Shown here one piece after another: positions 5,286-49,503 of a stretch of 64,000 bases of DNA. Source of the DNA: Polytrichum commune (Eukaryota; Streptophyta; Polytrichopsida; Polytrichales; Polytrichaceae); assembly GCA_950295325.1 (NCBI GenBank), contig OX485803.1, positions 20,832,001 through 20,896,000 of the forward strand, in the 5' to 3' direction. The position numbers and the translations under genes were made by a program. The notes below the pieces were generated by a model. The model did not search any database and was not told where the DNA came from. It saw nothing but the letters and a program-made list of their open reading frames with translations. Positions within the stretch are counted from its first letter, which is position 1. Every line of letters begins with the position of its first letter.

Positions 5286-5450
5286 TCAACTTGCTTTGTT
5301 ATTGTGAGCATCGTTGCTCGTAGTGGAATTTGATTTCTCAAGGGTCCAACCCGCGGCCTTGGCCACACATGCCCTTAAAGAGATCCCTCTAGACTTCTTG
5401 ATTTTTACTTCCTTTATTTTGTCCTTGCTAGGATCCTCCACATTCTCCAT
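5286..5450 (-). CDS. Conserved 54-aa small ORF of TGTGAG unit A
   Basis: The ATG at 5450 opens a 54-residue frame beginning MENVEDPSKD, then a lysine-rich stretch (KIKEVKIKK), then the conserved core GISLRACVAKAAGWTLE at about residues 23-39, and ends NNKAS. The ORF length of 165 nt is identical in four copies of the element. Differences from the other copies are dominated by third-position synonymous changes, so the peptide itself appears to have been selected. No known domain is recognised. The basic N-terminal half and predicted helix-like core could suit nucleic-acid or protein binding, but that is speculation. In element-sense orientation it lies near the 3' end. A short stem AAGTGTTTTT...ACACT is conserved just upstream of the start. 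Confidence 0.6.
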   Translation of the reverse strand: MENVEDPSKDKIKEVKIKKSRGISLRACVAKAAGWTLEKSNSTTSNDAHNNKAS

Positions 5451-5689
5451 TAATTGTGCACGTGATTTATTCCAACCAAAGAGTACGAGTGTTTAAAAAC
5501 ACTTACCTCAATGGGTAACCACCAACACATTCAAAAGTCACACACACTTCTACTTTCCTAATGAATCCAACTTTACCTAAAAACCAAGATGGCATGAAAG
5601 AATCTAGTATGGTCTAGCAATCCCGCAAGGGATTAGCCTAACTACCACCCCCATAGTAGCCTAACTTATTAAAGCTAACGAACTAACTT

Positions 5690-6040
5690 AAGCCCAGCCG
5701 GAGTACAGTCCAGCAGCCCAGCTGCCTTGGCCTTGGCCCAGCAGAAATACAGTCCAGCAGCTCAGCTGCCTTGGCCTTAGGCCCAACATAAATATAGTCC
5801 AGCAGCTCAGCTCCTTGGCCTTGGCCCAGCAGAAATACAGTCCAGCAGCCTAGCTGCCTTGGCCTTGGCCCAGCAGAAATACAGTCCAGCAGCCCAGCTG
5901 CCTTGGCCTTGGCCCATCATAAATACAGTCCAGCAGCCCAGCTGCCTTGGCCTTGGCCCATCATAAATACAGTCCAGCAGCTCAGCTGCCTTGGCCTTAG
6001 GCCCAGCAGAAATACAGTCCAGCAGCCTTGGCTGCCCTTA
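5690..6040. repeat. Minisatellite inside TGTGAG unit A, ~44-bp unit
   Basis: Seven or so units built from AATACAGTCCAGCAG, CCCAGCTGCC and TTGGCCTTGGCCCA. They vary by single bases and small length changes. Equivalent positions in the other four TGTGAG units hold arrays of different units, most sharing the word GCCCAGCTGCC or GGCAGCTG. Confidence 0.9.
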
Positions 6041-6741
6041 ATAAACCCCTCTCATCAACTAATCAAAGGTTTTCTAAATTCTTCTTTTCTTTTCTTTCCT
6101 TTGCTTCTAAGTCATGAACTAATTTAACACACTACTTTCACTAACTACCACCTAATCACTACATGCAATCTTAAGCTCTAAGAGCTCACTCACTTGGGAG
6201 GCCTTAAGAGAGAGAGCTTAACTAATTAACTTCACTAAAACTAATAGCCCACACACATGGCTCAAGCTCTTAAGAGCTTGCTCCCTTGAGAACGCTTGAT
6301 GGAGAGAGTGGTAAATGAGAGAAAAAACACCTTAAGTAGCAAAGAGGGAGAGAGGGAGAGAGGGAGAGAGAGGTGAGGATAGGGTGAGAGGATTAGCACC
6401 TCCAATCACAATCCCTTAACCTTCTCCTCCAAAGTATGAACTAATCCCCATCCACCAAGCTTCCTTCTTCCTAAACTAATAAGGTGGATCCAAAAGTGGG
6501 CATTTAACCCGCGGAGCTCACCTTGCTTCACCTTACCCCCTACTCACATTATCAAGGCATACTCTTATTGAATTCAACCTTGAAATAATCACACAACACA
6601 TTCTAAAGCCTAAACTTAAATCCAAACCACACTTCACTCTTTTTATGTTTTGTGAATAATCATAACACATCAAAGTCAAACTAAAATTGGTTTCGAAGAG
6701 TTAATCACCACATGTGGGCACCATTTTGGGCTCACAATCCC

Positions 6742-7434
6742 CCCACCCCCCCCCCCTTCCGACATGTTAGCAAGAAGAGGGATAACATCTATGGATTGGC
6801 TAGGGGTGGGAGCTAGGCTTTGGGTCAAGGACATAATTGACAATCAAGTCATCCTCCTAATTGTCCATCCTCTTTGATTTTCCCCAACTAATTAAGAGAA
6901 TCATTTACCTCACCTACAAAAGGAACAATTTCAAGGGAGGATGAAATTCTAGTAGGGTCAAAGTCCAGGGCACCCTCATCTTCAGTATCTCTTATGTTTG
7001 TCCCAGAGACTTTGCGCAGTGATCATTTCATGCTCATGGGCCCAATCCTTGCATTGTGTACCATTTCCTTTGAGGGTTCCATTCCATCACCTGCTTTTTT
7101 TGAGTTTGTCAAGGTTGGTGAGTAAGTGACTAGTACCTCTTTGGAGGTAGAAGCTTTAGAATATTGTCCTAGGGGCTTGGTCTTCTCCAACCTCGTTCTA
7201 CGACCATCCTTATGGAAATTTAAATCATGTTCATTGAGGAAGTGAGAAGAATTTTTTGGACCCCAAAGCACTGCCTTGCTAATTGACCAAGGCCTCCACT
7301 TTGGCTTTACCCTTAGCATGTTTTTGAGTGACTAAGGTGAAGCCGTCAAAATTGGACGACTTGGACGAGGTAGGAGCCAAGCCTTTGTGACCAAATTTCT
7401 TAAAAACTTGCTCAACTGCCTTGGCCAATTCTCC
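6742..7434 (-). pseudogene. LINE ORF1-like remnant, middle fragment
   Basis: Minus-strand frames of 61 and 98 aa overlap and read collinearly: GELAKAVEQVFKKFGHKG then a Lys/Ser/Thr-rich hydrophilic region (KGKAKVEA, RRTRLEKTKPLG). Such charged linkers usually follow the zinc knuckle in plant LINE ORF1 proteins. Both ends stop precisely at TGTGAG-unit insertions (ATCCC duplication on the left, AAGGG on the right). Frameshifts and stops make it non-functional. A poly-C run (CCCCCCACCCCCCCCCCC) at 6739-6756 adjoins the left insertion. Confidence 0.5.
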
Positions 7435-8140
7435 AAGGGTGTGAGCCCAAAAGGGTGCCCACATTTAGTCTTAGACCCTTGAAACGTTAGTTGATGCACT
7501 TTGAAGTAGCATGTTACTTCACAAAAATATAAAAAGAGTGAAATGTTAGTCTTAGAAGTACCATGTTGTAAGAGGCTAGGATGTGAGTTGTTATTGTGTT
7601 TTTACCTTCGGAAGGATTTGAGTGAATGAGGATAGGTAAGGAGAACTTGGATTGAGTAGTTAGTGAGTAGGCTAGTACAAATGGATGGAGACAACCAAAG
7701 TGACTCAAGAGGCAAGTGCATTCGAATTGGGATGAATGGAGGATCACATGGAGCGCACAAGTGGACCACCTCATCATGGCCACTTAATGGGGAAGGCCCA
7801 AGGAAGAATGCAAGGTGGAGGATAAGCAAATTCTCAAAGCACCAATCAAATCACGAGTTAAGCATCGTGGTTTGAATTAAGTGGTGAGCGACGATTTGGG
7901 AAAGTAAGGGGAGAAAGTTATGGCGGCGGAAAGCGAAGGAGGCTAAGTTTGGGTTGAAGCATCCCAAGTTTGGTAAAGTGTGGTAGGTAGAAAGCCAAGG
8001 CTAGTTAAATGTTCGAATTAGGATCCTTGTTGATCATTTGAGGGAGGAAGGCTTAGAAGATAGGATTGGCGCCTACTAAGTAGGAGGAAATCTCAAGGGC
8101 TTATCGTGAGCCTTGAGGGTGCTCACCCCCTCAAGCTTAC

Positions 8141-8150
8141 TATATAATCC
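8141..8150 (+). promoter_or_regulatory. TATA-like box of TGTGAG unit B
   Basis: TATATAATCC about 700 bp into the unit, followed by CT-rich sequence (TTCTTCCCTCACTCATCCTC), the arrangement of a U3/R boundary. It points towards the small ORF 0.9-1.05 kb downstream. Confidence 0.45.
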
Positions 8151-8649
8151 CTCATTCTTCCCTCACTCATCCTCTCTTTCCTTTGTGCTCCAAGGCACCC
8201 CACGAGTTATAAGTGTAGGTGTGGGAAGCCATATTGGAGCACATGTGTGTGCTTAGTTTTTAGTTTGAGAGCCAAGGCTTGTTAGCCTTGAAGAGGGCTT
8301 GACCTCTTGGTAGAATTAGTGTTGACGTGAAGGATTTTAAAGTTAATTCATGATTCCAATTTGTGGTACTTAAAGTTCATGTTTTGAATACACGTGGTTG
8401 CAAGTTCCATGTTTAAGAGTTGAGCACTTGATGTTGTGATGAGTGCAAAAATATACTTGTGTGGATTAGTTAGTCTTAGTGAAGTTAGGAAATTCTCTCT
8501 CCCCCTCTCCTCTCTAGGATTTTAGGATTTTAGGATTAGAGAAGAATTGTGTGATTAGAAAGGGGTTGTTAGTAGAATTAGGGAAATTAGGTAGGAAGAT
8601 TAGTTAAGGGCTTGAATAATTAATGAGGTAGTTGGGGATTACAACTACA

Positions 8650-8895
8650 AAGTTGTGGGTTCATGAAGGACCTGGGTTTATGAAGGACCTGGGTTTGTTT
8701 AGTTAGAAAGTAAAGAGCTGGGTTTATGAAGGACCTGGGTTTGTTTAGTTAGAAGCTAAGGAGCTGGGTTCATGAAGGAGCTGGGTTTATGAAGGAGCTG
8801 GGTTTGTTTAGTTAGAAGCTAAGAAGCTGGGTTTATGAAGGAGCTGGGTTTATGAAGGAGCTAGGTTTATGTAATTAGAAAGTAAAGAGATGGGT
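8650..8895. repeat. Minisatellite inside TGTGAG unit B
   Basis: Repeated blocks of GAAGGAGCTGGGTTTATG and GTTTAGTTAGAAGCTAAGGA in changing order, with unit lengths of about 18 and 48 bp nested in one another. It occupies the same position within the element as the unrelated arrays of the other TGTGAG units. Confidence 0.85.
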
Positions 8896-9077
8896 TCATG
8901 AAGGAGCTTAGTAGATAGCCTACCTAATTAGCTCATAGACAAGTAGTTAGTTACATTATGCTAGTTAGTGTTATGTGTGGCTTTCACAAGTAAATGTATT
9001 TGAGATTGACTATAGAGAATAGTGTTTTTTTTAACACTTGCATCCTCTCTTTAAAAATAAACCACGTGCACAACTTA

Positions 9078-9155
9078 ATGGAGAATGTGGAGCACTCTCG
9101 CGATGGCAAGACAAAGGAAGCAAAGACCAAAGGTGCGAGGGAGAGATTGACATAA
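9078..9155 (+). CDS. N-terminal half of the element small ORF, truncated (25 aa)
   Basis: The conserved start context CACGTGCACAACTTAATGG opens MENVEHSRDGKTKEAKTKG, aligned with the first 20 residues of the 54-aa peptide of the other copies, then ERLT and a stop. The break occurs after the GCGAGG that in other copies is followed by the core. About 145 bp of extra sequence separates it from the core in the next ORF. Either this copy has gained a segment or the others have lost one. Confidence 0.35.
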   Translation: MENVEHSRDGKTKEAKTKGARERLT

Positions 9156-9188
9156 GTCACATAAGTATTTCTTAATACTTAAAGGCTT

Positions 9189-9401
9189 ATGTACGGTATG
9201 GAGACACCAAGTGAGACCTCTTATAGTAGCGATACGGAATACACAAGTGATAGTTCAAGTGGTAGTATAGAGTCAACGGCACGGACTCCATTTAGGAGAG
9301 GGATATCCTTAAGGGCTTGTGTAGCTAAAGCAGCCGGATGGACGTTAGAAGCAAACAAAGACAAAATAGCACCCGAGCATAAGGAGGTTAAAATAACATA
9401 G
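9189..9401 (+). CDS. Variant 70-aa small ORF with conserved core (TGTGAG unit B)
   Basis: The frame has a Ser/Thr/acid-rich N-terminus (SETSYSSDTEYTSDSSSG), then RRGISLRACVAKAAGWTLE, then a hydrophilic tail (KDKIAPEHKEVKIT). Residues 38-54 are identical to the core in unit A, while 12 of those 17 codons differ by synonymous changes only. The N-terminus and tail are unrelated to the 54-aa version, so the core is the conserved module. Function unknown. Confidence 0.5.
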   Translation: MYGMETPSETSYSSDTEYTSDSSSGSIESTARTPFRRGISLRACVAKAAGWTLEANKDKIAPEHKEVKIT

Positions 9402-9609
9402 TTAACTTGTGCATTCTCCACATACGTATTGAAATCGTACATTGAGTTGTTAAAAGTGAAATTCCAGTTAAATCCAAGACCACTTGAAGGGTGAACATTG
9501 CACTATGGACTCATCCAAGTCCAAATCGAATACCGCGGAGGAATGTGAGCCCAAACCCACTACTCGGACTACGGACGCTTAAGGGTGGGGGGTTTGGCCT
9601 CACAAAGGG

Positions 9610-10250
9610 CGAGGGACTAGGGGTTATGATCTCTTGACATTTTTGAACATCAAGGTGTGATACTGATCTCAAGGTAAAGGTACACTTGGCCAAGTAACTG
9701 GGGTTCTACTTGTATGTGACTAGCTTCCCAAACAATGTAGTAACCTAAACTTGACATGGGTTGCGGATGAGCCAAAGCTCCAGAACTGTAACGATTAGTT
9801 AGGATCTCCTTACATTGTATGATTGGGGGTTTTGTTGATAAACATAAGTGACACATGGTTGGAAGAGAATCATAATCAAAGATGGCTCTACAAAATACTC
9901 CAGGCTGGAGCGTGGTCAATTCCACATTTGTGGCCCATCCCCTCTCCACATTGACTGAGATGCAAAATCAAGGGTGCTTGAGCTTAAGATTGCTTTGATC
10001 ACTTCCTATTACGACCCTGATTTGCGTAGCATCCATTGAAGTAATTGTAGGTACTCAAGCAAGAGCCGTTTGATCATAATCCATGTGGGTATTTGTAGTC
10101 GAGAGGGACTACCAATATCAAAAGATGGAACCCATAGATGAAAAATACAAGTCCCAAAATCACTATGAAACGGGGTTTGCATTAGCACTTGTTTGGTTAT
10201 TTTTGGTTTGTCACAATACATATAGAAGAAGCCAAAACCAACTTTGTTAT
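9610..10250 (-). pseudogene. LINE ORF1-like remnant: DUF4283-like region and zinc knuckle
   Basis: Reading right to left, a frame at 10221-10009 contains HLWVPSFDIGSPSRLQIPTW followed by IMIKRLLLEYL. This matches the way DUF4283 proteins of plant LINE ORF1s read (tryptophan-proline-x-phenylalanine-aspartate, then a short proline/tryptophan strand). After a frameshift, 9949-9650 gives RAIFDYDSLPTMCHLC then PPIIQC, a zinc-knuckle arrangement CX2CX4-P-X4C in which the usual histidine is proline. ORF1 proteins bind RNA in LINE ribonucleoprotein particles. This copy is dead: frameshifted, with the knuckle residue lost and cut by the unit at 7440-9604. Upstream 10492-10704 may be its N-terminus but is not recognisable. 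Confidence 0.55.
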
Positions 10251-10704
10251 TGAAGCTAACTTGCCCTTGATTTCATTGTTCAAGGTTACAAACCAAGGTT
10301 CTAAAAAACCTCAATTAAGGCTTAGGTCCAATCAAATTCGCAATGAGAATATGATCAAAAAATTGAACTTTTGCTTGAAGAACACACATATTCAGGAGCT
10401 CACTACGGGAAAGCCTCAATACGTAGCCATTTGCATAATGTGTGTGTCATGTTGGAGGTAGTTCACTAATCTCTCTTTGGAAGGGGTTAATTCATGGCAG
10501 AGTTTTGTACTTTGGTGAAGTTGATCCTCCCACCTCTTTCATTTGTTCATCTCCATTTGAATTGTGTGTAAACTGACATGTCTCTGTAGACAAAGTATGT
10601 TGGCAACTTTGCTTATATTTTGAGCCATGTTCGAGTGCACACTTTTGGAAGCATGTGGCCTCATATAGCACTTCTTTGCCTGAGCCTAAATGTGGGAAAA
10701 ACAA

Positions 10705-11682
10705 TTGTTATGCCTCGGTGGGACGACCCCACCTAAACCCAAAACCGGCAAGGACCCACTCCAGTGGGGTAGGCTAGAGTCTCCCGAGAATTGGCATCCT
10801 CTAACTAGACTGCAAAGGTCGTAGCTCTAGAGGGTGTGGCGACTCTATTCGAGTATGGAATCTCCATAGCTTCTACACCAATTGCCATCTTTGGGTTTGT
10901 GCTACATACTAGATCTACCCAAAACATGGGATAAGTTTACTATCAAAAATTGTAAGACACACTCCAAACTTATGGTTTAAGAGATTTTGCTATGTGTTGC
11001 AAGCATGTCAACATGAGCACCTAGAAAATCTCCACTAGGTTTGAAAGACAAGCCTCCACCTTCTCTAGGAACTTCAACGGATGTGGGCTTGCCTCCCGGG
11101 GCGGCATGCGCCATAGCAATGCAGATCTCTCATCGTCGCTCCACACCCCATTACCTCTTAGTCTTAAATTTTGATGGTGGGGATCCTTGTTCTCTTCAGT
11201 GAAGGTAAAGGGTGGAGGCAACCTGGAAGGTGAGAGAAGTTATATGTCCAAAGCAACTCACCAACATACTACATTTTTGCAAACTATGTTTCAAGGGTGT
11301 GTTGTTCTTTTGCACTTCTAGCTTCATATACCTCACTATTAATCGGCTTATATGTGCCACACTTGCATATATTGTATCACTTCAATAAAAAATGGCACCT
11401 AGCCCACAACACCGACGACATGTTGCATCCATATGAGTTCAAGAGCATAAGGAATCACATTGACACGGCAAAATCCTAAGAGATAACCAACCAACAACAA
11501 CCAAGGAAGTTGCAGAAGCCCACAACTCCCAAATCCACAACCATGACTCACATGTGCCCCATAGCCAAGTCAAAAATTTGCAAGTTCAATTTCAGGAGGG
11601 GAATGCTATTGCATGAGCAAGTTCATGTTTAGGTGTTCCATCTCCATGGTGTAGGGCCCCATTCCCACAAAAAAGATATGCA

Positions 11683-11683
<1 letters not shown>
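10705..11683. other. No supported gene
   Basis: Contains a GGGACGACCCCACC / CCACTCCAGTGGGGTAGG patch at about 10721-10775 and scattered short frames, including a 66-aa minus frame at 11021-11221 with no recognisable motif. It may be further LINE-derived sequence, since it directly follows the ORF1-like frame, but nothing decisive is visible. Confidence 0.3.

Positions 11684-11718
<35 letters not shown>
11684..11718. repeat. Poly(A) tract, A35
   Basis: An uninterrupted run of 35 A. It could be the 3' tail of a retroposed sequence lying to its left on the plus strand, but no body or target duplication was found. A related A-rich (AAAAAAAT)n tract lies at 12259-12291. Confidence 0.9.
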
Positions 11719-11719
<1 letters not shown>

Positions 11720-12542
11720 CAAATTTTTCCCAAGGGATAGATAAACTTTTTTACGAGTTGTCCAACTTGCTCCAAAAAAAGGCGGGGAATGAACCTTGAA
11801 AATGAAGTACACAATAATTTTTTTTCTTTCGAATACATGGTACCATATAATAAACCACAATACTAAAACTTATAACTTCCTTTATGTATCGGACTAACTT
11901 CAAACACAACAAGTTTATAATTCTTTTATATTTTTAATGAATATTCACAATAATGTGGATATATTAGCTAAGGCCAAGCCTACTAGGTGGTCATAAGCAA
12001 GCGTGTGCATAAAAATACCTAAAATAAGATGGAATAAAAAGAAATGCAAGGCTTAGAAGCCCAACCCATAATGCCCATAACCTACACTTGAGCCAAACCC
12101 CATAAAATCTAGGGCAGGCACCTAGAGGTTTTAAATCCCCTACTAAATGAATGTAAATAGAATGCTACATGCAAGGTACAAACCGATTTGCTTGTTGTTC
12201 CACCTTTCATATGGAAGAATTTACATAGGTAAAGCTTAGTAGGGAGCCTTAGCTGCCACCAAAAAAAATAAAAAAAATAAAAAAAATAAAATCTATGATC
12301 AAGCCTATGCTTAGCTAAATACATGCATGCATAAATCATGCTTACATTTCATAACCCAATTTGTGGATCAAGGATTAGTGGCACCCATGTGAGTTGAAGG
12401 TGAAAATGCAACAAACCCTTGACAAATTGTTTTTGTATATAGAATATGATGATTTTTTTAATATGTAATTGACTAATTGGGAATGGAATATTGAGGATGA
12501 TGGAAACTGTGTGGATGGATATCCAAGGCTAAGGACCATGGA

Positions 12543-12842
12543 TGTAAACAAGTTGATCGATGAGAAGTGAGATAAGTATTAAAAGAGAGGTGATCGTACA
12601 ATGTAATGATTGATTGATAGATAGATAGATAGATAGATAAGGAAGCTTCAGTCTACATTTAATCAGAATTGAGACTTCTAAAAGCATATGTTAAATACTA
12701 TAGATAGATAGCTAGAAGGCTTGGGGAGAGGAGAACACATGTATTATGTTTTGCATGTGTCTCTAGGTTGGGAGATGAGCCTCTAGATTGAAACTTGAAA
12801 TTATGAACAATTGAACTTGCGTGAATATAGAGACATGTTTCA
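12543..12842 (+). repeat. 5' LTR of the gypsy element
   Basis: TGTAAACAAGTTGATCG...GAGACATGTTTCA. Blocks shared in order with 19286-19484 include GATGAGAAGTGAGATAAG, GGAAGCTTCAGTCTA and GAGCCTCTAGATTGAAA. It is followed immediately by a primer-binding site. It is about 100 bp longer than the 3' copy because that copy lacks the middle part (about 12678-12760 here). A GATA tetranucleotide run lies at 12615-12640. Confidence 0.75.
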
Positions 12843-12846
12843 ATTT

Positions 12847-12858
12847 TGGTATCACAAC
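12847..12858 (+). other. Primer-binding site of the gypsy element
   Basis: TGGTATCACAAC begins four bases after the putative 5' LTR end. The first eight bases match the complement of the 3' end of initiator tRNA-Met used by most plant LTR elements. Confidence 0.6.
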
Positions 12859-13167
12859 ATTGTGTTTTGTTGATTTGCATAGTGCTGTGTTGTGCTCATG
12901 AGTTTTGGGTATTGTTGTGATTTGCTTTAGCACCATGGGTTCTATCGCAGTGCTCCACCCAAAAAATCAAAGAGATGGGGTTCCCAACTCGAAGTTGTTG
13001 TCTCAGCCAATTCTTGATGAATCTCCCAAGCCGTTGTCATTGCTATGGAGAAACATACATACAGTTGTTGAACAAATTTTCAAATATAAAATAAAATAAA
13101 ACTAAAAACTAAATGTCCATGTCTTCTTCCTCTTTCTCTTTCTTTGCCCACTCCTCATGTCCTGCTA

Positions 13168-13169
<2 letters not shown>

Positions 13170-13204
<35 letters not shown>
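13170..13204. repeat. (GA)n microsatellite
   Basis: About 17 uninterrupted GA units. Confidence 0.95.
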
Positions 13205-13208
<4 letters not shown>

Positions 13209-13626
13209 TCTATGCTTACTTTCAAGCTTAGTCACTTCTTAGCACACATGTTTATGCAAAGATCATTCCATTTCTCCTACATATATGTGTATCCTTCAAT
13301 ACCCGGGAGGGTGGGTGGGACCATCCTTCAAGGAAAATTTGTGTCTAACTATCTTCCCTAACTTGGTGCTTTCTCACATAAGTTTGTCTCCTCAAAGGAA
13401 ATAATTATAACCTCAATCATCAATCTAGTAGGGTTTTACCCTCTTTATACTTAGGTAAAGTGTTGTGCTAAACATGTTCAAGTTCAAAAATGTGTGCAAG
13501 ACATAATCAATAGAGCTTCAAATGTCTATCTTAAATCCATATGCTTTGTATTCTAAATTGTGCAAAATACCTAAGCAACATACAAATCATTTTTTGAAGA
13601 AAAACGAGATACAAATTTTAATAGTG

Positions 13627-14707: not shown

Positions 14708-14749
<42 letters not shown>

Positions 14750-19260: not shown

Positions 19261-19285
19261 GTTCATAGAATTTTTGGTCCATGTA

Positions 19286-33513: not shown

Positions 33514-33643
33514 TGTGAGGCCAAACCCACCACCCTTAAGCGTCCTAGTCCGGGTGATGGCTTTGAGAATCACATGTATCTCCTACAACCTTGAACCATG
33601 TGCAAGGCAATTTTCATGTTCAAAGGAACACATATTGTTTCAC

Positions 33644-33808
33644 TCATTGTGCTTTATTAATGTTAGCCTCTTGGCTTGTGGTAGAATTGGCTTTTTCAAG
33701 AGTCCAACCCGCGGCTTTAGCCATACATGCCCTTAAGGACACTCCCCTCACTCTTTTAATCTTCACTTCCTTTTTCTTGCTATTGCAAGAATCCTCCACA
33801 TTCTCCAT
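33644..33808 (-). CDS. Conserved 54-aa small ORF of TGTGAG unit C
   Basis: ATG at 33808 starts MENVEDSCNSKKKEVKIKR, then VRGVSLRACMAKAAGWTLE, then KANSTTSQEANINKAQ and a stop. Residues 20-54 are nearly the same as in unit E (48010-49634). The differences from unit A are mostly synonymous. A longer in-frame start exists at 33862, but conservation across copies begins at this ATG, so I chose it. Function unknown. Confidence 0.6.
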   Translation of the reverse strand: MENVEDSCNSKKKEVKIKRVRGVSLRACMAKAAGWTLEKANSTTSQEANINKAQ

Positions 33809-34099
33809 TAACTGTGCACGTGATTTATGGTGACTTGAGAGTGTGCAAGTGTTAAGAAACACTTTACTCCATAGTCAATGTTACATGCAATCACATGTGA
33901 CTTCCACACACACATCGCCTATCCTATTGAGCTTAACACTTGTCTAGGAACTATTTTAATCTACAAATGGTCTAATACCCTCATGGCTAGTTTAGTGGCA
34001 CCCTCTACTTAATCTTAGCCTTAGCTTGCTAAACCAGCCAACCGGCTAATTAACCTATCGGTCCAAATCCGGCCTATTTACCGGCAGTCCCTTGGTTAA

Positions 34100-34225
34100 C
34101 ATGGGATCAACAACTAAGTTGGTGCAGTCTCAGCTGCCCAACAGCACTAAACTCGGTGCAGTTTGGCTGCCCAACAGCAACTAAGTTGGGTGCAGTCTCA
34201 GCTGCCCAGCAGCCTAATCCCACAG
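34100..34225. repeat. Minisatellite inside TGTGAG unit C
   Basis: About three units of AACTAAGTTGGTGCAGTCTC plus AGCTGCCCAACAGC. The copy number is lower than in unit A. Confidence 0.75.
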
Positions 34226-34565
34226 AGTTCCAATACCTGAATAGGCAATCCAGCTACTAGCTGCACCTAATACAAACCCTCTCATCCACTAATCAAATGT
34301 TTTCTAGGTTCTTCTTCTTCTTTTCTTTTCTTTGCATTCCTAAGTCATGAACTAATCTAACACACTAATTTCACTAACTACTACCTAATCACCACGTGCA
34401 ATCTTAAGCTCTAAGAGCTCACTCACTTGGGAGGCATTAAGAGTGTGAGGCCAAATCCACCCCCCTTTAGCGTCTTAGTCCGGGTGATGTCTTTGAGAAT
34501 CACATGTGTTTATTCCCACACTGAACCATGTGCAAGGTAATTTTCATGTTCACATATGGTATCAC

Positions 34566-34730
34566 TCATTGTGCTTTATTAATGTTAGCCTCTTGGCTTG
34601 TGGTAGAGTTAGCTTTCTCAAGAGTCCAACCCGCGGCTTTAGCCGCACATGCCCTTACGGACATTCCCCTCACTCTTTTGATCGTCACCCCATTTGTCTT
34701 GCCATTGCAAGAGTCCTTCACATTCTCCAT
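34566..34730 (-). CDS. Conserved 54-aa small ORF of TGTGAG unit D
   Basis: MENVKDSCNGKTNGVTIKR, then VRGMSVRACAAKAAGWTLE, then KANSTTSQEANINKAQ and a stop; 54 codons, no indels relative to units A, C and E. A longer in-frame start at 34769 is not shared by all copies. Function unknown. Confidence 0.6.
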   Translation of the reverse strand: MENVKDSCNGKTNGVTIKRVRGMSVRACAAKAAGWTLEKANSTTSQEANINKAQ

Positions 34731-34994
34731 TGATTGTGCACGTGAATTATGCTGACTGAGAGTATACAAGTGTTAAGAAACACTTTACTCCATAGTCAAT
34801 ATTAAATGCAATCACATGTGACTTCCACCCACACATCGCCTACCCTATTGAGCTTAACACTTGTCTAGGAACTATCTTAATCTACAAATGGTCTAACACC
34901 CTCATGGCTAGTTTAGTGGCATCCTCTACTTAATCTTAACCTTAGTTCGCTAAACTAGCCGACCGGCTAATTGACCTAATTAACATGCAACACT

Positions 34995-35160
34995 AAATTG
35001 TGCCCTCTCAGCTGCCCAGCCGCACTAACTTGTGCCGAGTCAGCTGCCTAACAGTAAAGCAACACTAACTTGTGCAGTCAGCTGCCTAGCAGCAAAGTAG
35101 CGCTAACTTGGTGCAGTCAGCTGCCCAGCAGCAAAACAACAACACTAACTTGGTCCCCCA
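34995..35160. repeat. Minisatellite inside TGTGAG unit D
   Basis: About four units of AACACTAACTTGTGCAGTC plus AGCTGCCTAGCAGCAAAG, about 40-43 bp each. Confidence 0.8.
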
Positions 35161-36302
35161 ACAACGTTTAGGCAAAATGTCTAATAAGTCTTAACAACTA
35201 CTCTCAACCCCTAATGATTAATTGAGTGTTCCTCTAGTCCCTTAACCAATGAATGAACATATCCCACTAATTTCACTAAACTAGACCCTAATCCTCCTAT
35301 GCAATCTCAAGCTCTAAGAGCTCACTCACTTGGGAGGTATCAAGGGAGAAAGAGTTCAACTACTTAACTTTACTAAAACTACTAATACACACACGTGGCT
35401 CAAGCCCTTTAAGAGCTTGCTCCCTTGAGAGCGCTTGAGGGAGAGAGAGGAAAATGAGAGAGAAACCACCTTAAGTAGCAAAGAGGAAGAGAGGGAGAGA
35501 GGGAGAGAGGGGTGAGGATAGGGTGAGAGGATTAGCACCTCCAATCCCAATCCCTTAACCTTCACCTTCAAAGTAGGGACTAATCCCCTTCCACCAAGCT
35601 TCTTTCTTCCTAAACTAACAAAGTGGATCCAAAAGTGGGCATTTAACCCGCGGAGCTCACCTTGCCTCACCTTACCCCCTACTCACATAATCAAGGCATC
35701 CTCTTATTGAAATCAACCTTGAAATAACTACACAACACATTCTAATGCCTAAACTTAAATCCAAACCACACTTCATTCTTTTTATGTTTTGTGAATAACC
35801 ATAACACATCAAAGTTAAACTAAAATTGGTTTCGAAGAGTTAATCACCACATGTGGGCACCATTTTGGGCTCACAAAGAGAGAGAGCAAAAATGAGAGAG
35901 GGAAGCCTTAAGTAGCAAAGAGAGAGAGAGGTCATGAGGTAAGGATAGGGTGAGAGGATTAGCACCTCCAATCACAACCCCTTAATCCCTTACCCCTAAG
36001 TAGGGACTCATCCCATCCACAAAGCTCTTGCATTCCTAAATCAACAAGGTGGATCCTAATGTGGGCATTTAACCCGCGGAGCTTACCTTACCTCAGCTTA
36101 CTCCATACTCACCTAGTCAAGGCATCACTTATTGAACTTAAACCTTGAAACAATCACACAACACCACCTAATGTCTAAACTTAAATCCACATCACACTTC
36201 ACTCTTTTTATATTTTTGTGAACAATCATAACACATCAAAGTCTAACTAAAATTGGTTTCAAAGAGTTAATCACCACATGTGGGCACCATTTTGGGCTCA
36301 CA

Positions 36303-40898: not shown

Positions 40899-40921
40899 TG
40901 AGGGTTTAGGGTTTAGGGTTG
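40899..40921. repeat. Short telomere-type (TTTAGGG)3 repeat
   Basis: GAGGGTTTAGGGTTTAGGGTT: the plant telomere word three times. On the minus strand it reads AAACCCTAAACCCTAAACCC, the telo-box found in some plant promoters. No supported gene follows it. Confidence 0.8.
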
Positions 40922-42403
40922 GTTTGAAAATGTGTTGGCTTTTGTTTCCCACTTTGGTTGATTGTGTTCCCAGAAAGAAGATTATCTTCCTCTATCATAA
41001 TCAAGAAACAAGCACTACCGAAGTCTAGGGTTTATGGTTTAGGCACACACTGCAACACATGTGTTTCGCAACCTTATTTAGATGGTGTGTGTTGATGACA
41101 ATGAGGAAAGGCAACCATCACCCTTGCTTAGCTTCAATAATGGCATCCCTCTCATCAATGATTTTCTCCGCTGAAAATGTGAATTGAAGGGTGCCCACTG
41201 ACAAAATATATTTTACTTCAACTATTGAGCAAATCGCTCAACCTTTATTCTTTACGGGGATTGTGCATCGGCATGGGAGCTCATCGAAGTTTCCAAAACC
41301 CACAAACTATTCTCCATCCTTTCCTGCAAATTTACGTTCAAAGGCGTGTTTACTTCTTGGTTGTTCACTTCATCTATGTACATTGACCACAAAATTGTTG
41401 AGGAATTTTATAATGCAACACTTTATACTAAGGAAGATAAAATTGAAGTTCACATCTATTTAGAACTTGCAATATTATTGTCACTTGTCTAATATTGTGT
41501 TTGCTCGAATCACTAGACTCTATCTCACAGAGAAATGCACAAAAACTTTCATGTCTATTGCTTGATTATATGCAAATGCACAACAAGTTACAAAATAACA
41601 TTTCCAATTCTTGGTTAGATCTCTTTGTTGCAAATTTTGCCTTGTGGTGCTCACTCCCTTATCTCAAGTGGAAACGAGTCACTCGCTCTAACTCTATTCA
41701 ACTTCAGGCATCGCCATTAAGTCACTTAGCTCTCTTGTTTATAGCATGGTCTTATGCCAACTAATGACTAGCAAATAATTTATGTATGCTCTTATGCTCC
41801 TAGATATGGCCTTCTCAAGAAAATGAGGCCTCAATTGGTTACGAAAACCTAGAACCACTTCCCAACGAACCGCAACCTTACTAATTCACTTCATAGCAAC
41901 CTTCCATGTAATATTTAATCATGGTTCTCATTTATTTAGTTTCTTCCCCATTCATCTAAAGGTTGTGGCCAAAGTCATTGTATTGCAAAATCCCATATAA
42001 TATGCCTCTTGTTCTTGAAAAAATCGCTCGTTTAAATATTGTAGCTGACGTCGGTATTCAAGAGGAACTACATGTGGATTCAGAGGCCACAACACAAAGC
42101 TCAATATAAGAAAAAGCCATTGAGAATAACTCAAGTAGCTCGTAGAGAAGGCTATGCATAAGCCTCTAGTTCCACTATTGTTAGTGAAGGTGCAAGTCGA
42201 GTTGGACTACATGCACCCCAAAGTAGGGATTTTTTTCTAAATGAATAAAAAACAAGTAAATAAAAAATGTTGAGGGACATGGAACCCTAGATTGAAAATG
42301 CATAAATCTAGACGCATGTGTAATGTGATTTGGACCAACAAAAGACATATGTTTTTACATGTACACATTCCATCCCAATGGCAAGGGGAGGTGAGGATAT
42401 TAG

Positions 42404-43060
42404 TTCGTCTATCGTAGACATGCTACTAACCGTGCAGCACCACTTACCGTGCATGTCACGATACTCCACCATGCCACTTACCGTGTACTTATAATCTCGG
42501 CCGTCAAATTATATCACATGCAATCTCAACCGTCCGATGTCTCTCAAACTCAATCATGACCGCGCCAATGACCTAAAACATCACTGTCAACTCACACTCA
42601 TCATGGAGTTTCCTTCAGTTGAATCACATAGCAAGGTGTAGATGTAGCAATTTGATGAAGATGAAAAGAGCAGACCTTGCCAGGGCCAAAAAAGAAGCAA
42701 AATTTTCAACAACAACTTGAGAAGAAAATGGCTACACAAGTCAAAAGGACAATATCAAAACCTCATCAATTTCCTATGCCTACAAAGAAGAGGGCAACAT
42801 TTGTAGCTCCTTTAGTGAAACCTAACATGCACGGTTAGTGAATGGCACATTGATCACACATTGATGCATATAGTTATGAACTTGATTGTAGAAAGGTTAC
42901 AACTTTTCGGAACAATTGTCATTTCATTTTACCACAATACTCTCATCTCATTTACTAATTACAAATTTTAAAAAATAAATAAAAAAGGTTTAACCCACCT
43001 TGTGGAAAACCATTTGAAACCCAAATATGCACGGTTAGTAGCATGTCTACGATAGGTGAA
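42404..43060. mobile_element. TIR element with perfect 28-bp inverted ends
   Basis: CTATCGTAGACATGCTACTA then ACCGTGCA at 42409-42436 is repeated in perfect inverse at 43028-43055, and partial complementarity extends about five bases outward. Internal copies of the ACCGTGCA word (42448, 42833) suggest subterminal transposase-binding repeats, as in Mutator-like or hAT-like MITEs. The interior of about 590 bp has no recognised coding region. No clear target duplication was found. It lies directly upstream of a piggyBac-like remnant. Confidence 0.7.
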
Positions 43061-43094
43061 GTGGGGGTGTGAAGGTGCAAGAAAAAAACCCTCC

Positions 43095-43450
43095 CTAGTG
43101 CATATTCAATATATAACCTACGTGAGAGGGGTTGATGCGGTGGATCAATTTAGGGGGACATATTCATGTCAAATTAGATCACACGAGTGGTGAATAGGGA
43201 GTTTGAACGTGTCAATCAATTTTAGCTTTTTGATTATCCATAAAGATGTGATGAGCAAAGGAGGGCAAAATGACAAGACTTTGTCACACCTTCATTTACA
43301 AATAAGAATGGAGAAGGCTTTTACATCGGCTTGGAAGGGCCATGTTAGCGCAAAGTCTATTTACAAATCAATGATGGGGCACAAAATGCATGTTATGGTG
43401 CACACTAGATGGAGAAAGACATGCACTCATTGTAGACAAAAGATCAACTA
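43095..43450 (+). pseudogene. piggyBac-like transposase C-terminal remnant
   Basis: Reading across a frameshift: AYSIYNLRERGVDAVDQFRG then TYSCQIRSHEWWIGSLNVSI, then HLHLQIRMEKAFTSAWKG, then RKTCTHCRQKIN. The box (M/R)GVDxxDQxRxxYSxxxRSxxWW, followed by a helical stretch and a cysteine-rich end, is the signature of the DDE_Tnp_1_7 (piggyBac) family. The Asp of GVDAVDQ corresponds to the third catalytic position. Earlier catalytic blocks are absent, so it is a fragment. Ends and TTAA duplications were not found. Confidence 0.65.
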
Positions 43451-45282
43451 GCAATGTTACAACTATGGTGGCCTTTATCAATACTTGAAGATTATACTCC
43501 TAATCTTGCATGACTAAGGTAAGAATATCTATCCTTACATCAAATATCATTTGTTGCAATTCATGATTGAATTTCAATAAGTGAAAACACAAAACATGCA
43601 TGCATTGATAGGCCACATTTGGGCAGTACATGACAAAATTCAACATTTTGAAGATTCTTCGACATTTTAGGTTGCCTATGCTCTTTTAGAATATTGATCA
43701 TGGTGAGTCCCTTCTGAACCTCTCCCCTCCCCAACTTTGCCTAATTTTGGTTTATATTTCCCATCCTTATGAGATATCACCTGTTCATTACGAGGTATTA
43801 GGTTTAGTGAAATTTTTGGTTACATTTGTAGTTGAGATGGCTTGATTACGTAGACAAATTGTTGAAACATGGATGCTAGATTATGCATAGGCTATATGTG
43901 AGTTCTTGACTGGTTTGGTATTACATCTACCGTAGGATTTGTAAATTATGCCCAAAATTCAACTAGCATTTTTTACATTCGTTTTTATGGCAGTGTACAT
44001 GCATCACTGTTTGATGCAATAAATAAGCCACAAGGCTAATGTGGACACCTCTAGCCCTATGGTATCATCCAACCGATGGATTCGAGCACTGGAAGCTTGA
44101 GCATGTTAGCAATTGCGAATCATGACTAAAGAATTCGAAATCGTAAAAATCAGAGTTGAGGAAGGTGTGCATCTAGGCTTTGGATTCAAAGATTTTATGC
44201 TTCCCAATATGGTGTTATAGGGGCAGCTTTTTCATCGTTCGATGTTGTCTAAGTGGACGACATCCCTAGTAGAATCTACGTGGGTCATTTGCCAATGAAA
44301 ACCAAGTTTAATGCCAATATTGACTATGTCGTGTCTCTAAAGTGGTCATGGGTAGGATAAAATGTTGCCGAAGTAGCTTTTTGTTATAGAATACCCACAA
44401 TACAAGTTGGTTGACACCTCACAACCGCATGCCGCTCCTAATTTGCCCAAGTTGATGTTTTTTAAGGTAGAAAACTGAAAATGGTGAATGACCACTATTG
44501 GTGCACTAGACTAGGGGTAGATTGATTTTTATGTGGACCCAAGATGGCTAATTATAAAAGTGGTGCCCTGAAAAGAATGCAGTGATAGGTGGGATGTAGT
44601 GATTGGCCTGATAGGTGTTCTTTCACACCACTTGCGATCACTTTTGGGTGCCATTGAGTTGATTGTTTCGGGTGCATTTTGTATGCATTGTAGGATATTT
44701 TGGTGCTCATATTGGGGAGACTCTAGTGTATAGATAGAAGGTTTGACTTACATGCATCTTTGGGAAATGTAGCTAATTATATACATCAAATAAATTTACA
44801 AAAGAACCTGCATTCCTCACCATTTTCTCTTCTATGTCTCTTAAAAAACATTGCAAAAAGTTCAAGCCACCCTTTTTGGGCAAATATGTTTATTTCACCA
44901 TTTTTTGTATATCTACCTAAGTTTGATTTATGTGAAGGTGACTAACCCAAATATCATCAAGTTGTTGACTAAATTAACATGCATTATTCACCCACCGAAT
45001 TAAAGCAAATGTATTGCCAATTAGGAGTCAAAAGTAGGTGTATGGTAAAGGAAGCTAACCAAATTAGCCTCATCTACCTTAGCAACCCGAAAGTGCATGA
45101 CGGGATCTACAAATCAGTAGCCCACATTTGGAGAACAACTCAGTCCATACATATATTACTTAAATTGGAAGTTCAAGATGACCCTAAACTACCAGCTAAT
45201 AGTGGAGAGGTATGCAAAACCGAATGGAGTGGTTGGCAGTTTGATTCCTGGCCATGAAATCTTCTCTCTACGTGATGGAAAA
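43451..45282. other. No supported gene
   Basis: Short frames (61 aa at 44760, 92 aa at 44979-45257) show no motif. The sequence is of average AT content, and part of it may extend the piggyBac-like remnant. Confidence 0.3.
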
Positions 45283-45558
45283 CTACGTGGTTTTGTCTAA
45301 TTAGTGTGGGCCACACCAATTCCCAATTACCCACACTATTATTTTAAAATATAGTTTAAAGTGGTCCACTCGTATTTCCAGTGTGAAAAATTAGTGTGGG
45401 TTTTTTGTCTACATATTTTTATGAAAATTCAAGACCAAGCAAGTACTATTAAATTACTAATGTTAACCAAGACAAGTACTTTAAAAATCAATGTGGGCCA
45501 CGCTAAATTCCAACCAACATAAATTTCCCACCCACACTAATTAGACAAAACAATGTAG
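45283..45558. mobile_element. MITE-like element, ~28-bp TIR
   Basis: GGTTTTGTCTAATTAGTGTG at the left end and its inverse CACACTAATTAGACAAAACA at the right end form terminal inverted repeats with 2-3 mismatches over 28 bp. A TA dinucleotide sits at both outer boundaries, compatible with a Tc1/mariner (Stowaway-type) TA duplication, though TIR sequence is not the classic Stowaway motif. The interior is AT-rich and non-coding. Confidence 0.65.
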
Positions 45559-45645
45559 CCATGTGGTCAAGTGCCTGTTGTGATCCAAATTAAAAAAATT
45601 GAAATCTTCCAAACCCACAAATCATAAACATGTGTTTTTTCTTCT

Positions 45646-45668
45646 TATATATATATATATATATATAT
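45646..45668. repeat. (AT)n microsatellite
   Basis: About 11 AT units. Confidence 0.95.
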
Positions 45669-46117
45669 GAATGAGTACGCCTGCCTTGGCCAAGTCCATA
45701 ATGCTTTGATCAATATTAGATAAAGCCTATCTAAGCAACAAGATCAACAACAGTTGATTGACGTAAGATTATTTTATCATGCTATTATTTAAATGCCTTA
45801 TGATATTAAGACCAAGATCCTACGGTTAGATGACAAACTTGGATTGTAGTCAATGACACCGATTATCCCAATTAGTGTGTGTTCAATAACATCTAACTTA
45901 GAGTTTGATCGTTACTAACGATGTTTGGCTATCTGTTGCTTTCTATGCATGACCCGCTACTTCCCATATCTTAAGACACGAAAGGAGATTCATGTGACAT
46001 TGTGCACTCCACGCCTTGCCCTGAAAAAAGGGGAGAATTCTCAAAAACAAGGACCGTGAAAAAACACATCAAAATCCGGTGGAGTGTGTCAAGGCCCGGT
46101 TAAGACTATGATAGCAC

Positions 46118-46256
46118 GCATGTCCACACATACTGGTGTGGGCGACCAACGAATGACTCCCACCAACAATTTTTTAACACCGATTTGATCACTAGATGTA
46201 ACTAGTGATGATAGGAACCGTTCCCTAGTGGCCCACACCAGTAAGTGTGGACATGC
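46118..46256. mobile_element. Small MITE, 26-bp TIR, copy 1
   Basis: GCATGTCCACACATACTGGT with GTGGGC on the left and the inverse of GCATGTCCACACTTACTGGT on the right give a near-perfect inverted repeat in a 139-bp element. A relative with the same ACACTTACTGGTGTGGGC end lies at 54168-54324, so this is a small mobilised family. Also noted: AACTAGTGATGATAGGAACC near the right end. No clear target duplication here. Confidence 0.75.
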
Positions 46257-47400
46257 TACAAGTTACGACGAAGGGCGGGCGACGGGAGTCGGTCAATCCA
46301 CCTGAACCGACACACACATCGATCGCACCAACAGGCGGATGTGGGAGCCGCACGGCCTCCGAGGGGAGGCCGTGAGGGGAGGGTTTGGGAGCGAGCCAAT
46401 TAGAGCACCGTGAGGAGTTGTTGTTGGTGGCCAACTTTAATTGAAGGCTTAAGTTTATTAGGGTGGGTGGTTCGAGGCGTGCCCTTGCATGATCGTGCGG
46501 CGACGTCGGGTGGCAAGCAGGATATGTTGGGACGCAGGCTGCAAGCTTTGTTCACGGGCGGACGAGGAGGCGGAGTTGCTGACCGACTCGATTGTCGGTC
46601 ACCACTCTCGAATGTAACCTCAAACTCAATACGAATCCAAACAAAACTCGGGGACAAAGATCCACGCATTCCGAATCTCGAGTAATATCTTCTTCCAACG
46701 TACGTCGTATGGCAACGATCGGTCGAGTGTGTGTGCGTTGCCGTGCTTTTTTTTCTTTCTTTTTGGCATAAATTGAAAAATCGATTGTAAGAAGAATCCA
46801 ACATACAACCACCCTGGGAGAACCAGTGCAACCGAGGGGAAATCAAGAGATAATGCCCATATGAGGTCTAACCTTCCAGGTAACCACGAAATTGCTACGG
46901 GTCACAATAAGACCTTTGACATCCCAAATCGAGTCAGACTCGTTGAGGATATCCTGGTAGGCAACATCCGGGGCCTTTTCCAAGTTCGAGAGAGTACGTT
47001 TTCATTTGATCCTACCGTAATCCCGCAAGGCGTCCGAAATGACTTGTGGCATTGTAAAGCGTTGAAAACCGGATCATTCCTTTGCCGCCAAATAATCCAC
47101 GGAAGACCATTTCTTAAGAAGGACTAGATGCGACTGAACCTTGAGATCAGAACTCGTTAAAGATGATTTAATTTAAAGCTTTACTCTATGCCGGTGTATG
47201 TGTGGCAAAGCAACCTAGGACCCAATCTGGGTCACTGTAGCACGTGTGTAAGCCCAACCCATAAGGGCCATGCGGATTTGGCGTCATCGTTGGGTTGTGG
47301 CCCTTTGCAGGAGCCAATATCCTCTCAAGTTCCTTGTGTAGTAAACCATTCCGGGCGATCTGAAGACTAGTAGGTCTTGCGAAGCTTTCGGAGAAGTCCA
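46257..47400. other. GC-richer stretch without a supported gene
   Basis: 46260-46700 has the highest GC of the repeat-rich part and long overlapping frames on both strands (148 aa minus at 46400-46846; 91 aa plus at 46410-46685), which is expected from composition. The 88-aa plus frame 46861-47127 (RVRLVEDILVGNIRGLFQVRES, HCKALKTGSFLCRQIIHGRP) has protein-like composition but no recognised family. It may be coding debris of a retroelement. Confidence 0.3.
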
Positions 47401-47479
47401 AAAAAAACGGAGGGCATAGTATGACGTTTCTTGAACTAGGTTAGTAATAAAAAGTAATAGTCCAAGTTGTAGCAACGGC

Positions 47480-47790
47480 CAAATGAACCCATGGTCAGTG
47501 ACTTGCAAAGAGGTTGATCAAAGAGGCATTGCATCATGGAAAAGGATTTCCTCGGGCCAAGGTTCCCTATTTTGACAAAAAGTTGCCAAATGATATTAGC
47601 AACATACCGCCACCCATGTTGAGCTAGTGGACAACTAAAAAAATGTGCTCAACCGATTCCACCAACTGCGGACCACAATGGGGGCAACTTTTGTTGGTCT
47701 CTGTCAAGATTTTCCCATGCACGTTGATGTGCTTCAAAGATGGTATTGGATTGTTTGTGTAAGGGTTTGTGGACATGATGTATTTAAGGT
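47480..47790 (-). pseudogene. LINE reverse transcriptase C-terminal zinc-binding (zf-RVT) remnant
   Basis: Minus frame: IPSLKHINVHGKILTETNKS, CPHCGPQLVESVEHIFLVVH, then after a one-base shift PLAQHGWRYVANIIWQLFVK, IGNLGPRKSFSMMQCLFDQP and LCKSL. This is the zf-RVT domain that ends plant LINE polyproteins (CxxC, then ESxEHxF, then a tryptophan-rich helix), here with a stop or frameshift at about 47627. The remnant could belong to the same LINE class as the ORF1-like pieces at 4.6-10.7 kb, but it is not contiguous with them. Confidence 0.7.
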
Positions 47791-48749
47791 ATGGTAACGT
47801 AGATGGGTCTTACATGGTTCCCCCCCCCCAGACTAGCCCACTTCTCCAAGGATATGAAACAAGTGGTTAACCCCTAACTTCTCAAGCCACCAGTTGATGG
47901 ATGAAGTTTTCCCTACATAAACCCTAGATTCCTCATTCATCCATAGTCAAAGTAACTATAAACATCAAGCTGACATGGATATATGTATACACATAGACAT
48001 ATGAGCCGTTGTGAGCCCAAAATGGTGCCCACATGTGGTGATTAACTCTTCGAAACCAATTTTAGTTTGACTTTGATGTGTTATGATTATTCACAAAACA
48101 TAAAAAGAGTGAAGTGTGGTTTGGATTTAAGTTTAGGCTTTAGAATGTGTTGTGTGATTATTTCAAGGTTGAATTCAATAAGAGTATGCCTTGATATTGT
48201 GAGTAGGGGGTAAGGTGAAGCAAGGTGAGCTCCGCGGGTTAAATGCCCACTTTTGGATCCACCTTGGTAGTTTAGGAAGAAGGAAGCTTGGTGGAAGGGG
48301 ATTAGTCCCTACTTTGAAGGTGAAGGTTAAGGGATTGTGATTGGAGGTGCTAATCCTCTCACCCTATCCTCACCTCTCTCTCCCTCTCTCCCTCTCTCCC
48401 TCTTTGCTACTTAAGGTGGTTTCTCTCTCATTTTCCTCTCTCTCCATCAAGCGCTCTCAAGAGAGTAAGCTCTTAAAGGGCTTGAGCCACGTGTGTGAGA
48501 CATTAGTTCTTAGTGAAGTTAATTAGTTAAGCTCTCTCTCTCAATGCCTCCCAATTGAGGGAGCTCTTAGAGTTTAAAGTTGCACGTGTTGATTAGTTAG
48601 TAGTTAGTGGAATTAGTGTGTTAGATTAGTTTATTATTTAGGAGCAAGGAAAAAGAAAGAAGAAGAAAAACTTAGAAAACATGTGATTAGGGAAGGAGAG
48701 AGTTTGGATTAGGGTGCAACTAGTGGTTGGGATACCCATTCGGGTATTA

Positions 48750-49100
48750 TAACTTCATATACTGAAATCAGAAGGCAGTTGGGCTTGGAGGTTAGACCAC
48801 CCGGGACTGGAACAGAAGGCAGCTGGGCTTGGTAAGTTAGGCCACACCGCGACTGGAATCAAAGGCAGCTGGGCTTGGTAAGTTAGACCACCCGGGACTG
48901 GAACAGAAGGCAGTTGGGCTCGGTAAGTTAGGCCACACCGCGACTGTAATCAGAAGGCAACTGGGCTTGGAGGTTAGACCACTCGGGACTGGAACAGAAG
49001 GTAGCTGGGCTTGGTAAGTTAGGCCACACCGCGACTGGAATCAAAGGCAGCTGGGCTTGGAGGTTAGACCACACCCGGGACTGGAATCAGAAGGCAGCTG
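48750..49100. repeat. Minisatellite inside TGTGAG unit E, ~45-bp unit
   Basis: Seven to eight units of GAAGGCAGCTGGGCTTGG plus GTTAGACCACCCGGGACTGG or TTAGGCCACACCGCGACTGG, two alternating unit types. Confidence 0.9.
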
Positions 49101-49338
49101 GGTTGCCTAGCAACAATTCATTTAGACTATCTAGGGGTTAGCAAGGCTAGCTCAAGTAGTAAGTATTAGCACATAAAAAACTAGATCACATTAGGCCATC
49201 TTTAGTGGTAGCTAAGAAGTTATATTCATTTAGGCTAGTTGGTGCCACGTGTGGGTTTGTATGAGTGTGTTTAACCATTGAGAAAAGTGTTTTTCAACAC
49301 TTGTACCTCTTGGTCAAAATAACTCACTTGCATTATTA

Positions 49339-49503
49339 ATGGAGAATGTGGAAGATTCTTGCAATGGCAAGAAAAAGGAAGTGAAGATTAAACGAGCGAG
49401 GGGAATGTCCTTAAGGGCATGTGTGGCTAAAGCCACGGGTTGGACGCTTGAGAAAGCCAACTCTACCACAAGCCAAGAGGCTAACATTAATAAAGTACAA
49501 TGA
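49339..49503 (+). CDS. Conserved 54-aa small ORF of TGTGAG unit E
   Basis: MENVEDSCNGKKKEVKIKR, then ARGMSLRACVAKATGWTLE, then KANSTTSQEANINKVQ and TGA; 54 codons, preceded by a GTGTTTTTCAACAC hairpin about 55 bp upstream. It lies in the sense orientation of the element, about 130 bp before its 3' end. Many differences from unit A are silent. No homologous known domain is recognised. Confidence 0.6.
   Translation: MENVEDSCNGKKKEVKIKRARGMSLRACVAKATGWTLEKANSTTSQEANINKVQ

Follow-up and report, generated by a model that had tools for sequence, protein, structure and literature searches.

The window analysed here, 64,000 nucleotides of Polytrichum commune DNA (contig OX485803.1, positions 20,832,001 to 20,896,000), contains five long terminal repeats (LTRs) of a group of Ty3/gypsy retrotransposons, and each of them carries a short open reading frame (ORF) with a common peptide core. 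This ORF codes for a micropeptide that is under purifying selection in transposing lineages. An earlier note, made from the sequence alone, had placed these ORFs in LTRs, and target-site duplications (TSDs) bear this out: self-comparison and end inspection gave all five LTRs the ends TGTGAG...CTCACA and 5-bp target duplications. Because these duplications flank them directly, we read the window LTRs as solo. They are nested at one place, where solo LTR C2 has inserted in the LTR holding ORF C1. The LTRs, and the ORFs found by translation within them, are as follows (aa, amino acids):

5155 to 6736, minus strand: LTR A, solo, 1582 bp, TSD GGGAT.
5286 to 5450, minus strand: 54-aa micropeptide ORF of LTR A.
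7440 to 9604, plus strand: LTR B, solo, 2165 bp, TSD AAGGG.
9189 to 9401, plus strand: 70-aa ORF of unit B, with core codons at 9300 to 9350, inside an intron.
33514 to 36302, minus strand: outer LTR of unit C, which carries C1 and is interrupted by the nested LTR C2, TSD GAGGC.
33644 to 33808, minus strand: 54-aa ORF C1.
34444 to 35875, minus strand: LTR C2, solo, nested, 1432 bp, TSD CTCTT.
34566 to 34730, minus strand: 54-aa ORF C2.
48010 to 49634, plus strand: LTR D, solo, 1625 bp, TSD GCCGT.
49339 to 49503, plus strand: 54-aa ORF D.

The four 54-codon ORFs announced by the earlier note are all present, equal in length and free of frameshifts, each reading 54 aa from ATG to stop, and the core of unit B indeed lies in a different, 70-aa frame. 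Over GISLRACVAKAAGWTLE, 12 of the 17 codons (13 nucleotides) are different between units A and B without any amino-acid change, the codon count being that of the note; when 13 substitutions were placed randomly on this A-B core, zero amino-acid changes resulted in 0 of 200,000 runs. Compared with A and B, the core of D carries M, plus T for A, that of C1 carries V and M, and that of C2 carries M, V and A. The 28 pairs among eight hand-picked representatives differ at 2-14 core codons, with 0-4 nonsynonymous differences. The core (RGISLRACVAKAAGWTLEK), 19 residues long, stays near-constant while the surrounding DNA diverges. LTR B also keeps the start of a type-I frame (MENVEHSRDGKTKEAKTKGA, 25 aa) without the core, at 9078-9155, 5' of the 70-aa frame. 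In this LTR the core has apparently shifted to a new N-terminus.

So that copies would not be picked by their ORF, we anchored the sampling on the last 32 LTR bases, the noncoding 3' end. With up to 3 mismatches this anchor has 2884 matches; the sample was drawn from 100 listed ones, all with 0 mismatches, and is therefore skewed to young-looking copies. Its 76 units comprise 74 of the 100 listed places (4 of them in the window), C2, which joined despite its anchor mismatches, and a second match inside copy L039, the other 26 listed anchor places lying outside the sample. The frame is present in 56 units (17 B-type and 39 non-B). Frequent stops or frameshifts, which the earlier note had named as evidence against selection, do not occur: the 56 frame-bearing copies have no stop in the core or N-terminal of it and no frameshift in the core. 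As the frames were delimited at stops, a zero count of stops follows by construction, and what counts is that no frame is shortened before its C-terminal end. In L055 two core codons are absent, in frame. The 20 units without the frame are 15 B copies with GT-AG junctions, one B copy with another deletion (L030), L017, L045, L083 and the unplaced second L039 match. L017, L045 and L083 are short LTRs (834-987 bp) with junctions within or just past the core codons; an unspliced parent, sought to test the GT-AG reading in these three, was not found.

The ratio dN/dS (omega), which the earlier note had put forward as the check on purifying selection, is about 0.19-0.21 in the core against 0.84-1.70 in the flanks and other frames. 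Codon models were fitted to the 39 non-B copies on a flank-only tree, with the ORF, core, N and C parts refitted from several starts. The core has an omega of 0.188 (twice the log-likelihood difference, 2dlnL, from the neutral model 63.7) and the N-terminal part an omega of 0.489 (2dlnL 17.7). In the core, omega is 0.066 on internal branches and 0.325 on terminal ones (2dlnL 15.5), and the full tree agrees. Branches internal to the tree represent lineages that transposed, so the peptide is of importance to transposition or to the survival of active copies; the terminal omega, also below 1, is in keeping with a sample of small size relative to 2884 copies. Mean pairwise distances in the 39 non-B frames are 0.21, 0.21 and 0.40 at codon positions 1, 2 and 3, and the mean distance is 0.27 over the whole ORF and 0.36 in the upstream flank. 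The control frames (flanks, and the ORF in other frames, read as codons) range from 0.84 to 1.70, a range in which two upstream M0 fits did not converge. On the terminal branches, about 12.3 premature stops would be expected in the 54 codons and 5.6 in the core alone; in the 39 copies the N-part and core have 0. An in-frame upstream extension (MYLRL...) was considered as part of the peptide and is not supported, the upstream pseudo-frames, derived from gap-trimmed columns, having an omega of 0.84-1.22.

The B family adds a feature that the earlier note, whose selected peptide was supported and whose host exon was not, had not foreseen: a spliced intron inside the LTR. In 15 sampled B copies the ORF stretch is missing between exact junctions, and in the unspliced reference the missing stretch starts with GT and ends with AG (S1 and S2). 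With a third kind, S3, from a wider scan, there are three donors and a single common acceptor:

9133 to 9467, plus strand: intron S1 of LTR B, 335 nt, donor AAAG^GTGCGA, acceptor TTCCAG^TTAAATCC.
8865 to 9467, plus strand: intron S2 of LTR B, 603 nt, donor CTAG^GTTTAT in the minisatellite, same acceptor.
9211 to 9467, plus strand: intron S3 of LTR B, 257 nt, donor CCAA^GTGAGA, seen in 2 of 100 listed copies.

The aligner misplaced the gap in L025, L038 and L039, where the junctions were read from the sequence. A scan of the acceptor side found 913 places, and the 100 listed among them divide into 50 unspliced (U), 31 S1, 17 S2 and 2 S3; the listing spans 13 bases before the junction, and one place counted as U (925574) has the L030 deletion further up. 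Among 25 same-strand LTR pairs lying 7-11 kb apart, some of which have an LTR in common, 22 show the same splice state (expected 9.4; 0 of 100,000 permutations reach 22). The matching states fit reverse transcription, in which a single RNA supplies, through its 5' leader, the sequence of both LTRs. At least three haplotype backgrounds carry S1 and at least three carry S2; S1 is found in L081 too, which is 3.9% diverged from the other copies, so splicing has recurred. The GT/AG-bounded gap is common to both LTRs, with 3 of the 25 pairs discordant. To judge from these junctions in genomic copies, the ORF-less B copies that carry them are best taken as derived, many times over, from RNA that was spliced, reverse-transcribed and integrated. 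The one spliced element that was read internally, L086, has a gag-pol frame open over 2022 aa of the piece read, a piece 99.8% identical to an unspliced element.

A few copies depart from the simple pattern. The pair L068/L069 (G000:C1:13850277, 13859652) has five common variants in a combination unique in the sample, and one of the two is spliced and the other not. A single simple insertion with mixed LTRs was rejected because the target duplications mismatch, and the pair is a recombinant or mixed-template product, recombination being the likelier. The LTR pair L030/L031 (G000:C1:925574, 934483) is identical in the compared part outside the ORF region; one LTR has S1, and the other a deletion that, by eye, does not read as GT-AG. 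Three S1 LTRs (G000:C1:23575690, 23584730, 23593770) are spaced by exactly 9040 bases, probably because LTRs and internal regions are arrayed there in tandem. The S1 pairs G000:C1:772398/780226 and 55845578/55853313 lie 7.7-7.8 kb apart, about 1.2 kb under other S1 pairs, and are possible internal-deletion derivatives.

Across the genome (407.8 Mb, 64 contigs), exact matches to a degenerate ACVAKAA pattern number 979 (497 + 482), and those to the reversed pattern 0. The same genome has 70 GRAS-domain matches, against none in 14 control genomes, as suits a land plant. The two LTRs of full elements appear as same-strand matches about 9.4 kb apart, and the full-length pair L065/L066 has a TTTAG duplication on both sides. 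Of seven unspliced elements that we chose, six have a longest stop-to-stop frame of 2086 aa and the seventh one of 2078 aa. Family matches to the halves of this frame in L009 come in the order Retrotrans_gag, RVT_1, RT_RNaseH, Integrase_H2C2 and rve, with a protease match just below the cut-off (22.6 bits against 24.3). By their LTR ends, target duplications and gag-pol order, the host elements form a Ty3/gypsy group. Their LTRs hold minisatellite arrays between the putative start site and the ORF (5692-6027, 8656-8908, 34113-34217, 35023-35141 and 48761-49102), whose unit sequence and length vary by LTR type. Seen by eye, a hairpin, AGTGTT-loop-AACACT, lies just 5' of the ORF in all five window units (9021-9071 in B), the string CACGTGCAC stands there in four of the five, and a second hairpin, CACCC...GGGTGG, lies at the LTR 3' end. 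An additional LTR type, in L001 and L008, differs at the 3' end; its core reads RGISLKACVAKAAGWTLEK (in L008, RRISLKA...).

Relatives of the peptide are numerous. A protein search with A gave 105 proteins of about 30-94 aa at E<=10; it requires shared 5-residue words and therefore favours matches with this core. An alignment-based search gave 424 relatives at E<=1, 120 of them listed. None of the protein relatives (sources ena, jgi and ncbi) has a name past 'hypothetical protein'. Across 160 core windows, K is kept in 160, W and S in 159, L and C in 158 and G in 153, behind N-termini of several kinds (MENVED..., MESTSHS..., MESTSENS..., MEKVEDSS...). The string AGW occurs in 138 of the 160, and its end lies 19 residues from the C-terminus in 91, 22 in 27 and 21 in 8. 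Pfam, searched with two ORFs, gave no family above cut-off (below it, PmbA_TldD_1st at E 0.16 and SLBB at E 0.011), a PDB profile search no match at E<=10, and IMG/VR 11 pattern stretches with no relative among them. Searches of the open-licence PMC literature gave no hit for the core string CVAKAAGW. To judge by titles and the starts of abstracts, they also found no report of a plant LTR micropeptide, and for an intron within an LTR they yielded one lentiviral vector paper.

LTR B offers a landmark for the start of the transcript:

8139 to 8150, plus strand: putative TATA box ACTATATAATCC of LTR B, from the motif only, with the start site assumed about 30 bp downstream.

Measured from this motif, the B leader would run for about 1 kb to the ORF; the start in A is assumed and weaker. 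The ORF lies upstream of a stretch resembling a primer-binding site (PBS), and the gag-pol frame opens some 0.9 kb or more past the ORF. The TATA motif, the PBS-like stretch and gag-pol together suggest that the ORF is in the leader; within the LTR it lies near the 3' end, in R or U5. In L005, at 1791-1930, the PBS-like stretch TTGGTGCGTCCGCCGGGAGC adjoins the LTR and is followed by the strong donor-like CTCGGTAAGTATT. A conserved AATAAA that would have assigned the ORF to U5 was ruled out as a guide: by eye, the motif stands just before the ORF in A and B and not in C1, C2 or D.

We think it somewhat probable that the selected micropeptide is a small accessory protein of the element. Its template would be the leader of element RNA that has not been spliced, and it would act in trans. 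The spliced leader RNA would not encode it and could still be copied, so that element RNA would exist in two forms, one peptide-coding and one peptide-free. Three features favour action in trans over action in cis: the conserved block is internal, the C-terminus is unconstrained, and one core stands behind unlike N-termini. The peptide may also be a transcript-borne regulator of the element, as the earlier note proposed.

Several observations count against a selected, trans-acting peptide. The C-terminal codons are unconstrained (omega 0.84, 2dlnL 0.7, not significant). The downstream flank, which includes the conserved LTR end, diverges less than the whole ORF (0.24 and 0.27). Two of eight control frames are above 1 (downstream frame 2, 1.70, 2dlnL 10.6; ORF +2, 1.46, 2dlnL 8.6). 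L044, L049 and L074 terminate a few codons early, L046 reads past the usual stop, and three non-B LTRs (L017, L045 and L083) have no core. AlphaFold2, run with 49 sequences, gave one short helix (residues 25-32) at a mean pLDDT of 58. On the assumed transcript 12 AUGs precede the ORF in A and 23 in B, so that ordinary scanning would rarely reach it. Finally, B copies with spliced junctions are as frequent as the others (50 of 100 listed); since such copies are common and the gag-pol frame of L086 is open, the peptide may be dispensable in some copies.

Among the alternatives, the strongest, unlikely as we rate it, is a conserved-peptide upstream ORF (CPuORF) acting in cis, whose nascent core would slow the leader ribosome and lower gag-pol translation, a brake that splicing in B would lift. 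One published account (PMC5902531) describes attenuator peptides of CPuORFs. Like plant CPuORFs, the ORF is short, precedes the PBS-like stretch and the main frame, to judge from its probable leader position, and is conserved as protein rather than DNA; it is also removable through alternative splicing. Unlike them, it resides in a retrotransposon LTR, its conserved block lies well inside and away from the stop (AGW is mostly 19-22 residues before the end), its last codons are free, and many AUGs come before it.

By analogy with Rev and Rem of retroviruses, the trans-acting peptide might further be a self-encoded switch of RNA fate, a tentative idea to which we give a still lower chance. Made only from intron-retaining RNA, it would favour export, translation or packaging of the unspliced RNA, and splicing of the LTR intron would yield peptide-free copies living off peptide-coding ones. 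If this is true, no such regulator has, to our knowledge, been described before from a plant LTR retrotransposon, nor any that an LTR intron encodes.

The earlier note had also offered an exon captured from a host gene, and a core of host origin could mimic a host protein, for instance by binding Argonaute through its GW. GW residues are linked to Argonaute hooks, and of the 160 core windows 153 retain the G and 159 the W. A single GW per peptide would be a weak hook, and the longer proteins with the core (108-343 aa, 13 matches at E<=10) do not point to a host gene: the 12 of these 13 that were read, by eye, look like LTR ORFs running on, mostly into the LTR's own 3' end. As the matches read from both protein searches are LTR-type ORFs, with no Pfam family above cut-off and no PDB match, the captured exon was set aside as unsupported, and we hold host mimicry to be highly doubtful.

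Less credible again is that the ORF-less B copies arose through deletion, during reverse transcription or after insertion, instead of splicing. A 2-bp AG on both sides of the S1 and S2 junctions, the different L030 deletion, which by eye is not GT-AG, and the unexplained junctions in L017, L045 and L083 would suit deletion; three left ends at GT with one right end at AG, the lack of AG overlap in S3, the agreement of LTR pairs in 22 of 25 and the recurrence of S1 in the diverged L081 would not. Least probable of all is a signal in the RNA or DNA, such as a packaging, dimerisation, integrase or promoter site, whose frame is open only incidentally. In its favour, other LTR stretches are kept (both ends, the hairpin in 5/5, CACGTGCAC in 4/5) and the downstream flank is conserved like the ORF; against it, third positions (0.40) are as variable as the upstream flank (0.36), the ORF in other frames has an omega of 1.3-1.5, and 13 of the 51 core bases distinguish A from B.

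Known systems offer partial parallels to a selected LTR micropeptide. Sag of mouse mammary tumour virus (MMTV) is an LTR-encoded protein of endogenous retroviruses, and sag is under purifying selection with some signs of positive selection, according to PMC11998498. The likeness lies in a protein-coding frame within the LTR. Sag is a much larger membrane protein from the 3' U3 region, whereas the plant Ty3/gypsy product has about 54-70 aa and lies near the LTR 3' end; Pfam (two ORFs) and the PDB profile search gave no sequence relation to a known LTR-encoded protein. The same paper describes spliced retroviral insertions as rare and names endogenous MMTVs deleted for the Rem intron and spliced HERV-H proviruses (PMC11998498). 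These too are integrated copies that lack exactly an intron, likely from spliced RNA, but the B intron lies entirely within the LTR, has three donors and is spliced out in 50 of 100 listed copies.

Ogre and similar plant Ty3/gypsy elements have extra ORFs and introns, with spliced RNAs, sited between the LTRs, whereas here both ORF and intron are within the LTR. MMTV Sag and the Rem-intron-deleted MMTVs are the nearest precedents that we met, and neither joins an LTR micropeptide with an LTR intron. LTRs are mostly regarded as control DNA that does not code for protein. That most of the sampled LTR types in an abundant plant element group hold a selected micropeptide means that an element gene of about 54 codons may be escaping annotation. 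In about 900 copies, the B LTR intron preserves a natural record of how frequently spliced element RNA is reverse-transcribed, and makes the need for the peptide in cis or in trans a testable question.

Elsewhere in the window, a tRNA of 83 bases at 61913-61995, recognised by an Rfam match of 61 bits and missed by ARAGORN with bacterial settings, perhaps contains an intron.

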